Under the pieces are notes generated by a model. The model did no database searches. It saw only the letters and a program-made list of their open reading frames with translations, and was not told the DNA's origin. Made by a program: the position numbers and the translations under genes. Shown piece by piece: positions 36,443 to 40,702 of a stretch of 64,000 bases of DNA (its first letter is position 1; each line of letters begins with the position of its first letter). The DNA is from Mycolicibacterium aichiense (lineage in GTDB: Bacteria; Actinomycetota; Actinomycetes; Mycobacteriales; Mycobacteriaceae): contig NZ_AP022561.1 of the NCBI RefSeq assembly GCF_010726245.1, positions 5,704,001-5,768,000 of the forward strand, written 5' to 3'.

Positions 36443-39400
36443 ATGAATGCTGCGGCACGCCATACCGGGGATGCAGCCCAGATCATCAACGACGGTCCGG
36501 AGCGCAGACCGCGCCAGCGCCGGCGTAGGCAACCGTACGGCTGGCTGGGCGTCGGGGCACTGAGCCTGGGCGTCGGCGCCGCCCTGACGACCGGCACGGG
36601 GCTGGCACATGCGGATACCGCCAGCGGCAGCGGTGCGTCGTCCACCGGCAGCGCGACGGGCGGCGCCTCGTCGGGCAAGTCTCCCGGCGGCCATACGGCG
36701 CGGCAGCAGACGCCCAAGCCGACCCCGGCCGACTCACCGTCGTCGGGGAGCGGGTCGTCGAAGACGGCCGGCACGCTAACTTCACGATCTACGCCGCGGC
36801 CCTCCTCCGGCAACAGATCGACGACGGATTCCCCCTCCGTGAGGGTCGGCGCAGTCGAATCAGGCAGCAACGCAGTTGCGGCCCCGGCGGCGACGCTCAG
36901 CAGCGCCGCCACGGACGTCGCCGCTCCGCCGGTCGCGGCACGAAAGCTGGCCTTCACGCCGCCGAGCCTGCTGCAGATCCCGGTCTCGCTTCCGTCACCG
37001 GCGCAGGTGCTGCGCTCGCTGGGGATAGCTCCGATGGTTCCGGCCCTGCCGGTCACTAATCCGATCAACGATCTGCTTGTCGGCTTGTACCGGCAGACGC
37101 AGTCGCTACTGGCGATGCCGCGGACCACGGGGAAGGCGGCCGCGCTCACGACGTCGGCGCCGACCGCCACCTACAGCGTGGTCTCCGACTGGGGGTCTGG
37201 TCACACCGCCAACATCACCGTCACCGCGGGCGCCACGGCCGTGAACGGCTGGACGGTCGAATTCGATTCACCCGCCCAGATCACGAACATCTGGAACGGC
37301 CAGGTCACCAGCCACGTCGGCACCCACTACGTGATCAGCAACGTGGCCTACAACGGTGCCGTCGCCGCAGGCAAGAGCACGACCTTCGGCTTCCAAGCCA
37401 CCCCGGGGGCGCTCGCCTCGGCGCCGACCAACCTCAAGGTCAACGGTGTCGCCGTCAGCACGCCACCGACCACCCCCACCATCTCGATCGCCGATACGAC
37501 GGTCACCGAGGGCAACAGCGGCTCGACCAACGCCACCTTCACCGTCACGCTGTCCAAGGCCGCCACCACACCAGTCACCGTCGGCTACACCACCGTGAAC
37601 GGCACTGCCACCGCCGGAGCCGACTTCACCAGCACCACAGGCACTCTCACCTTCGCAGCAGGCGTGACCTCCCAGACCGTCACCGTCAAAGTCGCCGGTG
37701 ACACGACCGTCGAACCCAGCGAAACCTTCACCGTCACGCTGTCCAACCCCTCCGGGGCGACCATCTCGCGCGGCACCGCCACCGGCACCATCACCAACGA
37801 CGACGTCGCGTCGAACCCGGGCACCAACTCGGTCACCTACAGCGTGGCCAGTGACTGGGGTTCGGGCCACAACGCGAACATCACGGTGACCGCAGGCCAG
37901 AACCTCAATGGCTGGACGGTCGAATTCGACACTCCCGCAACAATAACCAATATCTGGAACGGCCAGATCACCAGCCACGTCGGCACCCACTACGTGATCA
38001 GCAACCTGGCCTACAACGCCACGGTCGCCGCAGGCCAAAGCACGTCGTTCGGCTACCAAGCCACCCCAGGCGCCGTCGGCTCGGCTCCGACCAACCTGAA
38101 GGTCAACGGTGTGGCCGTCAGCACCCCGCCGACCACCCCAACCCTCTCGATCTCCGATACCGCGGTCGCCGAGGGGAACAGCGGCTCGAGCAACGCCACC
38201 TTCACCGTCACGTTGTCCAAGGCCGCCACCACACCGGTCACCGTCGGCTACACCACCGCGAACGGTACTGCCACCGCCGGGGCCGACTTCACGAGCACCA
38301 CAGGCACTCTCACCTTCGCACCGGGCGTGACCTCCCAGACCGTCACCGTCAAGATCACCGGTGACACGACCGTCGAACCCACCGAGACGTTCACCGTCAC
38401 ACTGTCCAGTCCATCGGGTGCGACGATCTCCCGCGGCACAGCCACCGGCACCATCACCAACGACGACGTCGCCACAACGCCGGGCCTCAGCATCTCCGAT
38501 GCATCGGCGACGGAGCCCGGTTCCACGGGAATCGCGGCGGGGTTCCTGCACACCTCGGGCAACCAGATCCTGGACTCCCAGAACAAGCCGGTCCAGATCT
38601 CGGGCGTCAACTGGTTCGGCGCGGAGGGCACCAACGGTGTGCCGGACGGCCTGTGGACCCGCAACTACAAAGACATGATCGATCAGATGTCGGCGCAGGG
38701 CTTCAACACCATTCGCATCCCGTACTCCAGCGCGATGCTGCACAACACCGCGGCGCCGTCCGGTATCAACTACAACCTGAACCCCGACCTGCAAGGGCTG
38801 TCCCGTATGCAGGTGCTGGATCAGATCATCGCCTACGCCGGTCAGGACGGGATGCGGGTCATCCTCGACCACCACCGCAGCATCGCCGGTGCCGGAACGA
38901 GTGAGAACGGCCTCTGGTACAACAGCCAATACTCCGAAGACCAATGGGTCTCCGACTGGCAGATGCTGGCCACCCGCTACAAGGACAATCCGACTGTCAT
39001 CGGTTTCGACCTTCACAACGAGCCGTACAACGGGACCTGGGGCGGCGGCGGGGCCAACGACTGGGCACGCGCGGCGGAACGCGCTGGAAACGCTGTCCTG
39101 CAGGCGAATCCGAATCTGTTAGTGTTCGTCGAAGGCGTCGGCACCTATCAAGGCCAAAGCTATTGGTGGGGCGGCAACCTGATGGGCGTGAAGGACCGCC
39201 CGATCGTACTCACCGTGCCCAACCGGGTCGTCTACTCACCGCACGACTATCCGAACTCCGTGTACGCCCAACCGTGGTTCCAGACCGCCAACTTCGGCGC
39301 CAACCTGCCCAGCGTCTTCCGCAAAGCCTGGGGCTACATCTACGAGGACAACATCGCGCCTATCTATGTCGGCGAGTTCGGCACCAAACTCACCGATCCC

Positions 39401-40702
39401 AAGGACGTCGTCTGGTTCGAGGCGCTGACGTCCTACCTGTCCGGCGATTTCGACAACAACGGCACGGTCGACATCGCGGCCGGGACCGAGGACATGAGTT
39501 GGACGTACTGGTCGTGGAACCCCAATTCCGGTGATACCGGCGGCATCCTGGCCGACGACTGGAAGACGATCAATCAGAACAAGATGGCCTACCTGACGCC
39601 CATCGAGTTCTCCGGAGGAAGTGGCACATCGGTGGCGTCGTTCGTGGTGACGTTGGCCGCGCCGTCCACTCAGAAGGTGACGGTGCAGTACGCGACATCG
39701 AACGGCACCGCGACCGCGGGCCTCGACTACCTCAGCGTCACGGGCACAGTCACTTTCGCGCCGGGCGAGACCCAGAAGATCATCACGGTCCCGGTGAAGA
39801 GCGACTCCCTGACGGAAAACAGCGAGACGTTCACCGTCATGTTGTCGAATCCTTCCGGGGCGACACTCACCGACGCGACCGGGCTGGGAACGATCCTCGA
39901 TCGACCGGTGGGTACCTCCACCGGCGGCGGCACGCAGACGCCGCCAACCGACCCCGGGATGCCGATGCCCGATCCCCCCGCGAGCGGCCAGTACACCGAC
40001 ATCATGTCGTTCGGTATGTTCCACGGCAGCAGCCACACCGGTATGGACGGGCTCGCGGGCGGCCGGACGGCCATCACCACCGAGGCGCTGGTCGCCTACA
40101 ACGACCAGCGCAAGTTCGCCGGCCTGGGCACGGTGGCCCTCGAGGATGTCGGCAATTGGGCGTTCGCCAACAAGCTGACCAACAACGCGCAGGCCTGGAA
40201 CCAGGATCTGCAGGGCGTCGGACTGTACTACGCGATGCAGGGCGCGAAAGTGGGCTGGATCGCCGACGACAAATACACCCCGCAGATCGTGGCGGACATC
40301 GAACGGACAGCGCGACTCGGCTCCGCAGCCGATGTGATGGCCATGGTGGCGCAGTACGGCCACGCCGGCTTCGCCGAGTACCTGATGACCACCGGTGGTC
40401 AGACAGCCTTCATCGACACCCTGAAAATGGAGCCGCATTACGGCGGGTGGATGCACGATCGGGCGAACGGCCGCCTCGTCCTGGAGGGTTCCGCGACCGC
40501 CCACGACGTCAATCATTTGACCGTTCTCAGCCACGATCAAATGCAACCGTTCATGAACGACACCTGGGACTGGCCGCAATGGCCCGCACTGGACGTCTCC
40601 CGCAAGCGGGTGATCGAGTACTTCCAGAGCATGGTGGCGCTCGGCGACCCGCTCGGCAACAACCTCACCGCACTCGACGGTTCGGTGCCGGTGTCGCTCT
40701 GA
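36443..40702 (+). CDS. Secreted multidomain GH5 cellulase with CBM2 and Calx-beta modules
   Basis: Large exported endoglucanase-like enzyme, 1,419 residues. Approximate order: Arg-rich long signal peptide (to about 57, ending GLAHAD), Ser/Thr/Pro linker (58-240), CBM2 (243-345), Calx-beta (349-455), CBM2 (465-562), Calx-beta (566-676), strand-like LSISDASATEPGSTG (681-695), GH5 barrel (700-1053), remainder of a Calx-beta (1056-1154), Pro/Gly linker, and an unrecognised C-terminal domain (1183-1419). GH5 catalytic residues are Glu860 in DLHNEPYN and Glu978 in VGEFGTK. Start ATG 36443 with GGAGGAAGG upstream. It should bind and cut beta-glucans such as cellulose outside the cell. Specificity within GH5 is not determinable. 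Confidence 0.88.
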   Translation: MNAAARHTGDAAQIINDGPERRPRQRRRRQPYGWLGVGALSLGVGAALTTGTGLAHADTASGSGASSTGSATGGASSGKSPGGHTARQQTPKPTPADSPSSGSGSSKTAGTLTSRSTPRPSSGNRSTTDSPSVRVGAVESGSNAVAAPAATLSSAATDVAAPPVAARKLAFTPPSLLQIPVSLPSPAQVLRSLGIAPMVPALPVTNPINDLLVGLYRQTQSLLAMPRTTGKAAALTTSAPTATYSVVSDWGSGHTANITVTAGATAVNGWTVEFDSPAQITNIWNGQVTSHVGTHYVISNVAYNGAVAAGKSTTFGFQATPGALASAPTNLKVNGVAVSTPPTTPTISIADTTVTEGNSGSTNATFTVTLSKAATTPVTVGYTTVNGTATAGADFTSTTGTLTFAAGVTSQTVTVKVAGDTTVEPSETFTVTLSNPSGATISRGTATGTITNDDVASNPGTNSVTYSVASDWGSGHNANITVTAGQNLNGWTVEFDTPATITNIWNGQITSHVGTHYVISNLAYNATVAAGQSTSFGYQATPGAVGSAPTNLKVNGVAVSTPPTTPTLSISDTAVAEGNSGSSNATFTVTLSKAATTPVTVGYTTANGTATAGADFTSTTGTLTFAPGVTSQTVTVKITGDTTVEPTETFTVTLSSPSGATISRGTATGTITNDDVATTPGLSISDASATEPGSTGIAAGFLHTSGNQILDSQNKPVQISGVNWFGAEGTNGVPDGLWTRNYKDMIDQMSAQGFNTIRIPYSSAMLHNTAAPSGINYNLNPDLQGLSRMQVLDQIIAYAGQDGMRVILDHHRSIAGAGTSENGLWYNSQYSEDQWVSDWQMLATRYKDNPTVIGFDLHNEPYNGTWGGGGANDWARAAERAGNAVLQANPNLLVFVEGVGTYQGQSYWWGGNLMGVKDRPIVLTVPNRVVYSPHDYPNSVYAQPWFQTANFGANLPSVFRKAWGYIYEDNIAPIYVGEFGTKLTDPKDVVWFEALTSYLSGDFDNNGTVDIAAGTEDMSWTYWSWNPNSGDTGGILADDWKTINQNKMAYLTPIEFSGGSGTSVASFVVTLAAPSTQKVTVQYATSNGTATAGLDYLSVTGTVTFAPGETQKIITVPVKSDSLTENSETFTVMLSNPSGATLTDATGLGTILDRPVGTSTGGGTQTPPTDPGMPMPDPPASGQYTDIMSFGMFHGSSHTGMDGLAGGRTAITTEALVAYNDQRKFAGLGTVALEDVGNWAFANKLTNNAQAWNQDLQGVGLYYAMQGAKVGWIADDKYTPQIVADIERTARLGSAADVMAMVAQYGHAGFAEYLMTTGGQTAFIDTLKMEPHYGGWMHDRANGRLVLEGSATAHDVNHLTVLSHDQMQPFMNDTWDWPQWPALDVSRKRVIEYFQSMVALGDPLGNNLTALDGSVPVSL
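37169..37809 (+). repeat. CBM2-Calx-beta coding unit, copy 1
   Basis: DNA for residues 243-456 of the cellulase. It is nearly identical over long stretches to 37835-38472, one codon longer in the CBM2 part (TAGATAVNG against TAGQNLNG). It marks an internal tandem duplication. Confidence 0.85.
37835..38472 (+). repeat. CBM2-Calx-beta coding unit, copy 2
   Basis: Second unit of the tandem duplication, coding residues 465-677. The strong DNA match suggests a recent duplication or ongoing gene conversion; copy number may vary between strains. Confidence 0.85.

Follow-up and report, generated by a model that had tools for sequence, protein, structure and literature searches.

Predicted nesting of a GH5 endoglucanase between the first and second strands of a Calx-beta domain in a cellulase of Mycolicibacterium aichiense

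Does a cellulase of Mycolicibacterium aichiense carry its catalytic domain in front of a Calx-beta domain or inside one? The question is raised by a gene for a multidomain cellulase of 1419 amino acids (aa), located at positions 36443..40702 of a 64,000-nt stretch of contig NZ_AP022561.1 (“the window”, to which all positions refer; all features described are on the plus strand). The gene was delimited by its open reading frame and Pfam matches, and the genome consists of one contig of 5.93 Mb. Pfam finds Calx-beta three times, CBM2 twice, and GH5 once (residues 711–1029) in the protein, and the domain order is CBM2, Calx-beta, CBM2, Calx-beta, Calx-beta with nested GH5, and an unnamed C-terminal domain. 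An earlier note on this DNA had claimed that a first Calx-beta strand is followed by the whole GH5 barrel and then by the rest of a Calx-beta fold that lacks a first strand of its own. All of these elements were confirmed, and we conclude that a GH5 of the E1/CelE2 type has very probably been inserted between the first and the second strand of a Calx-beta host.

The first part of the host, strand A/A′, comprises residues 682–691 (38486..38515) and ends with E691; it was delimited with a strand profile, an AlphaFold2 model, and the alignment of relatives (see below). Its sequence, LSISDASATE, resembles the first strand of both intact Calx-beta copies upstream, at residues 345–455 (37475..37807) and 566–676 (38138..38470), which were delimited with an intact-domain profile and by sequence reading. 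The longer stretch LSISDASATEPGSTG corresponds to residues 682–696 (38486–38530). A linker (692–700, 38516..38542), recognized by low identity and partly low model confidence, leads to the inserted GH5 barrel (701–1050, 38543..39592; PF00150, with the structures 8fc0 and 1ece as relatives). A second linker (1051–1063, 39593..39631), recognized by a linker scan and low model confidence, leads to the second part of the host, i.e. strand B to the end (1064–1153, 39632..39901; profiles, AlphaFold2, and alignment). This remainder, VASFVVTL...GLGTILD, has the form of a Calx-beta domain from strand B onward and includes no first strand. Taken alone, it matches PF03160 with 73 bits compared with a cut-off of 27 bits, at model positions 20–100. 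The intact-domain profile matches both intact copies from position 1, but the split copy only from position 13. The Pfam Calx-beta model says little about the presence of a first strand, because its match starts late on the intact copies as well (positions 13 and 18, compared with 20 on the split copy). The coordinates of the earlier note were correct to within a few bases: strand and remainder are both present, the former at 682–696 instead of 681–695, the latter ending at residue 1153 instead of 1151.

Relatives were surveyed among the best 120 of 1725 protein matches plus the window protein, i.e. 121 proteins with 124 GH5 units. The 120 relatives were found with the nested unit as the query, so that the sample is biased toward nesting. 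A first-strand profile of 14 positions, built from 395 intact domains, was run without gaps over the flanks of the GH5 units, and 117 units were scored, i.e. all except five behind a complete Calx-beta domain and the two of one protein, P0059. A first strand of at least 12 bits precedes the GH5 in 115 of the 117 units (median 29 bits, compared with 34 bits for intact domains); the window strand 682–691 scores 29 bits. Shuffled flanks (n = 2340) reached at most 4.2 bits. The five GH5 units behind a complete Calx-beta domain have neither half of a host, and their values range from −13 to −28 bits, so that none passes. None of the linkers between GH5 and remainder in the 117 units contains a first-strand match (maximum −20.6 bits; 61 of these linkers, at only 13 residues, fall one short of the profile length and were scored with padding). 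On these sequence scores, a chance origin of the arrangement is excluded.

A census of the Calx-beta domains in the 121 proteins gave a matching result. With a score of at least 3 as the cut-off for an own first strand, and of at least 15 bits for an orphan first strand, 539 of the 661 domains have their own first strand and 122 do not. Directly behind a GH5 are 118 of these 122; the remaining four comprise two with divergent first strands (P0002 and P0003) and two at the start of the protein (P0055 and P0109). Conversely, every one of the 116 orphan first strands is found directly before a GH5. With the GH5 insert left out of account, each strand of the host domain is present exactly once, the hallmark of a domain insertion. 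P0059 (1413 aa) has a first strand, two tandem GH5 domains, and a remainder, i.e. two enzymes in one host; two nests are present in P0019 and likewise in P0095; and in 42 of the 118 units with a remainder, no more than 15 residues follow it before the protein ends. A split host domain accounts for the doubling in P0059, the double nests, and the early ends, whereas a mere linker predicts none of them. The nucleophile position is changed in both GH5 domains of P0059 (Ala and Asp), and this pair may be non-catalytic.

For an independent view, genomes were scanned with the GH5 core alone. The scan gave 517 confirmed places, the best 80 of which, all at named loci, were kept. Both halves of the host are present in all 80, with scores of 15.7–39.6 bits for the first strand and 7.7–64.0 bits for strand B of the remainder. 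The loci belong to Mycobacteriaceae, other actinobacterial metagenome-assembled genomes (MAGs), and Alphaproteobacteria, including Reyranella, Xanthobacter, Azorhizobium, Aquabacter, and Roseococcus. The closest of the 80 named loci are in the Mycobacterium sp. MAG D4_Bin_10 (98% identity over the GH5 core) and in Mycolicibacterium rhodesiae DSM 44223 (96%), and the M. aichiense genome has a second nested copy of 695 aa with 70% identity in the GH5 core. The earlier note had proposed to look for the same nesting in other GH5 proteins; census and scan agree that it is conserved among the relatives. The predicted nesting is thus a conserved architecture and not a product of chance. Matches were found in 14 of 396 Actinomycetota genomes, the nested ones being in three genomes of the genus of the window. 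Nine further places (L096–L104, 46–52% identity) and four with 27–29% identity are without both halves. Three of the loci (L030, L032, and L033) are on MAG contigs labelled Bifidobacterium breve and have a mycobacterial-type gene; the label is probably wrong. A further genome of the same genus has a second nested GH5 copy (L108/L111) that is broken by a frame change inside the barrel, with the first strand before and the remainder after the broken GH5.

The conservation of the unit was quantified with an alignment of 39 rows. From the 80 loci, 19 were initially excluded (one because of its short length, one with an internal stop, and 17 ending inside the stretch, four of which were restored in trimmed form), and 27 were removed because they were more than 88% identical. 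Strand A has a mean pairwise identity of 0.61, close to the 0.60 of strand B and above the 0.54 of the remainder. The values for the linkers are 0.15 before the strand, 0.37 before the barrel (692–699), and 0.27 after the barrel, and the length of the second linker ranges from 12 to 29 residues among the 80 loci. E691, D1095, and D1121 are invariant; E1125 is represented by 37 Glu and two Asp, E1128 is present in 38 of the 39 units, and D1153 is represented by 34 Asp and five Asn. All 395 intact domains have the glutamate that matches E691, and the acidic calcium-ligand positions of the nested hosts are conserved as in these intact domains. GH5 membership of the barrel follows from its sequence profile and its fold. 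E860 and E978, which we take to be the acid/base and the nucleophile, respectively, are present in all 39 aligned units, and both motifs occur in 122 of the 124 GH5 units. Endoglucanase activity is predicted by analogy with the relatives.

The structure of residues 672–1160 was predicted with AlphaFold2 as a single chain, using the 39-sequence alignment (mean predicted local distance difference test score, pLDDT, 82.6; predicted template modelling score, pTM, 0.75). In this model, strands are found at 681–684 and 687–690, with a pLDDT of 82 for model residues 11–20, and the Calx-beta remainder, from model residue 391 onward, contributes another seven strands. Both linkers of the insert have parts with a pLDDT below 50 (model residues 22–24 and 385–391). 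A control model was cut at residue 1061 and thus lacked the remainder: 672–695 had no strands and a pLDDT below 50 (38–40), and the elements of the barrel were almost unchanged. In the models, therefore, it is the remainder and not the barrel that gives the first strand its order. The earlier note had named an unpaired segment 681–695 as the outcome that would speak against nesting; the strand is predicted to be ordered, and only when the remainder is present, and residues 682–691 would thus pair with the Calx-beta sheet. The matches listed by a VIA-align search with the model were GH5 folds only.

The crystal structure 8fc0 offers a comparison from a relative (746 bits over 381 residues). Its deposited sequence of 381 residues begins with the first strand and ends in the linker before the remainder. 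Chain F has 360 resolved residues, aligned at 19–378 of its own numbering, equivalent to 697–1056 here, i.e. after the strand. An unbroken chain would therefore leave no room for the strand. The crystal thus supports a strand without a fixed place on the barrel, and this is firm for chain F only.

Several results weigh against the nested reading. The strand-A scores of the two P0019 units are just 2.5 and 5.2 bits, and the strand-B profile is below 15 bits in six of the 80 loci, the lowest value being 7.7 bits; the first strand is still visible by eye in both P0019 units, and the strand-B motif is still plain by eye in the six loci. One of the 80, the Reyranella soli locus L079, has an in-frame stop inside the GH5 barrel. 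Joining the halves gave no higher score than the remainder by itself (median gain −1.2 bits, positive in three of the 117 units), which we read as the gap cost of the approximately 20 linker residues in the spliced profile; this cost was the reason for the change to the ungapped first-strand profile. The pairing of the two host parts rests on the contrast between order and disorder and on DSSP. The resolved range of 8fc0 is printed for chain F only, and for the other seven there are lengths and numbers of alignment columns (346–364 of 381 residues resolved and 359–360 columns each among the eight chains). Finally, the alignment to NCX1, the Na+/Ca2+ exchanger considered below, stops short of the strand that contains E691.

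Three other explanations of the strand were weighed. It could be an inert remnant of the recombination of a GH5 into a Calx-beta array, the remainder folding without it. Recombination would be conceivable in such arrays (661 domains in 121 proteins), and the missing gain of the spliced profile is in line with this explanation. Nevertheless, the strand is kept in all 80 loci across Mycobacteriaceae, actinobacterial MAGs, and Alphaproteobacteria, it is as conserved as strand B, including a glutamate that is invariant in 39 of 39 units, and it is predicted to be ordered only with the remainder, which makes an inert remnant quite improbable. Even less probable is that the strand belongs to the enzyme, as an N-terminal extension of the barrel unrelated to the downstream Calx-beta domain. 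The 8fc0 construct, which begins with the strand and stops before the remainder, would fit such an extension; however, its chain F is resolved only from the level of I697, and a model that lacks the remainder shows no order in the strand. Moreover, the more distant GH5 domains of the same type at L096–L104 lack the strand, and so does the region in front of the second GH5 of P0059.

Strand swapping would leave the strand functional. The strand would pair with the remainder of another molecule, leading to dimers or fibres instead of a closed nest, and the AlphaFold2 run on a single chain only leaves room for this. Against it, a single chain is enough for an ordered strand in the prediction, and linkers of nine and 13 residues would suffice if the termini of the barrel are adjacent, as is usually the case in triosephosphate isomerase (TIM) barrels. 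We regard swapping as improbable, about to the same degree as the inert remnant. Insertion of the enzyme between the first two strands of the host is preferred to all three; computation supports that the host is split, that the split is conserved, and that the first strand depends on the remainder.

A nested enzyme would form a giant A–B loop of a host that is split into 682–691 and 1064–1153. The chain would lay down strand A, exit the sandwich, fold the full barrel, re-enter after the 13-residue linker, and complete the sandwich from strand B. Two short tethers would thereby hold the enzyme at one pole of the sandwich, and with the third Calx-beta domain of the array as the host, the enzyme would be carried behind two CBM2 modules. 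Of the interpretation in the earlier note, the nesting is supported, but not the claim that it fixes the orientation of the enzyme relative to flanking CBM2 units. The enzyme would be tethered at two points, with no support for a rigid orientation (both linkers have a pLDDT below 50), and the CBM2 modules do not flank the nest: both are on its N-terminal side (242–339 and 464–560), and a 235-residue unnamed domain, not a CBM2, lies behind it. The most probable role of the nest is a two-point attachment of the enzyme to the CBM2/Calx-beta array that limits the freedom of the enzyme without imposing one orientation, because the linkers have low confidence and the second one varies from 12 to 29 residues.

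The pole at which the tethers exit may also be the calcium pole. A putative site would consist of E691 from the first arm and D1095, D1121, E1125, E1128, and D1153 from the second arm, so that calcium could clasp both arms and stabilize the nest. D1095, D1121, E1125, and E1128 align with D421, D447, E451, and E454 of NCX1, as counted by hand from the alignment, and E691 would match NCX1 E385 by position only. According to PMC3386913, E385 of NCX1 takes part in as many as three calcium sites of the calcium-binding domain CBD1, and calcium orders CBD1 and ties it to the next domain. For the nested host, calcium binding, clasping of the arms, and any effect on activity are inferred. A calcium-operated clasp is a tentative and rather doubtful extension: extracellular calcium would close the loop and stiffen the enzyme on the cellulose-binding array, loss of calcium would free it, and the same loop might have received a GH5 more than once.

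The phylogeny bears on the number of insertions. In the GH5 tree, nested units occur in two places, with two changes of state; the second place is a small group of P0095 (source named Gemmataceae), P0059, and P0019. A single nested clade is weakly rejected (p value of the approximately unbiased test, p-AU, 0.024) in a quick tree of 60 rows, from which four distant or long-branch rows had been removed. Two insertions at the same loop or a single insertion with losses are both compatible with the tree.

CelE2, the nearest characterized relative, was derived from a metagenome. It is of the same enzyme type and shares the first strand and the linker, and the construct in the crystal (PDB 8fc0) keeps the first strand and lacks the remainder, so that the host domain has been cut. 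CaCl2 reportedly had an effect in the 2017 study of CelE2. The crystallized catalytic domain of Acidothermus E1 (1ece) aligns from model residue 25, and we know of no nesting in that enzyme. CBD1 of the Na+/Ca2+ exchanger shares the sandwich family and the calcium-ligand positions; it is an intracellular regulator and not an enzyme scaffold, and to our knowledge it has no insert between strands A and B. By the titles of Pimentel et al. 2017 and 2023, CelE2 is a GH5 endoglucanase with a Calx-beta domain, and the 2017 title speaks of an “unconventional domain architecture”. Judging from name and date, 8fc0 would belong to the 2023 paper. Nesting among carbohydrate-active enzymes has precedents: according to PMC7848910, CBM4 modules are inserted in the barrel of the GH10 xylanase Pm25/Xyn10C, and CBM58 in the GH13 domain of SusG. 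In these cases, as described there, a binding module lies inside an enzyme, whereas here the enzyme would lie inside a small beta-sandwich. Domain insertion as such is common, with 20% of multidomain proteins given in PMC13114784.

The combination of GH5 and Calx-beta is thus known from CelE2, and no description of a GH5 or another enzyme inside a Calx-beta domain was found among the titles and abstracts listed in the literature searched, the scope of which excludes both CelE2 papers. The nesting, which related enzymes of further soil bacteria share, may easily escape notice, since the host domain comes in two pieces. The annotation of this cellulase architecture, which is common to mycobacteria and alphaproteobacteria, reads “GH5 followed by Calx-beta”, and constructs can therefore cut the host domain, as in 8fc0. 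If the nest is real, comparisons of enzymes with and without Calx-beta are comparisons of a complete and a broken host domain. Nature would then offer an example of an enzyme held at two points on a beta-sandwich scaffold, perhaps with calcium as a control where the two are joined.

Whether other enzymes occupy the same loop was addressed with the intact-domain profile in 296 Actinomycetota genomes, where at least 14 matches begin at profile position 13 or later. Three of the 14 are nested GH5 hosts (two in the M. aichiense genome, one in genome G038). Ten more were inspected, together with three additional matches starting at positions 7–11, and the match in G135, at the edge of a contig, was left out. 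Among the matches listed, these 13 revealed no second enzyme insertion: most have a visible, divergent first strand, one is a frame segment just behind a break, and one is a masked region. Three GH18-type domains in such proteins (a 1024-aa protein of the M. aichiense genome, P0009, and P0010) look unnested. In the incomplete sample surveyed, nesting looks specific for GH5. The 1024-aa protein (2023000–2028500 of the genome) has two intact Calx-beta domains before its GH18-like domain and a short module in two copies near the protein ends. Another GH5 protein of this genome (1650500–1657500), with glycine-rich repeats before the catalytic domain and no Calx-beta noticed, was read by us as presumably PE_PGRS-like and endoglycoceramidase-like.

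The remaining parts of the window protein lie outside the nest. The N-terminus, charged and then hydrophobic, looks like an export signal. The two CBM2 modules (37166..37459 and 37832..38122) were recognized by PF00553 and delimited from the sequence; modules of this family bind cellulose. The C-terminal domain (1185–1419, 39995..40699), delimited from the sequence and the protein survey, has no Pfam match and no close solved structure (best E value 0.76). Its 235 residues include several histidine-rich motifs, and it is present in 36 of the 121 proteins.

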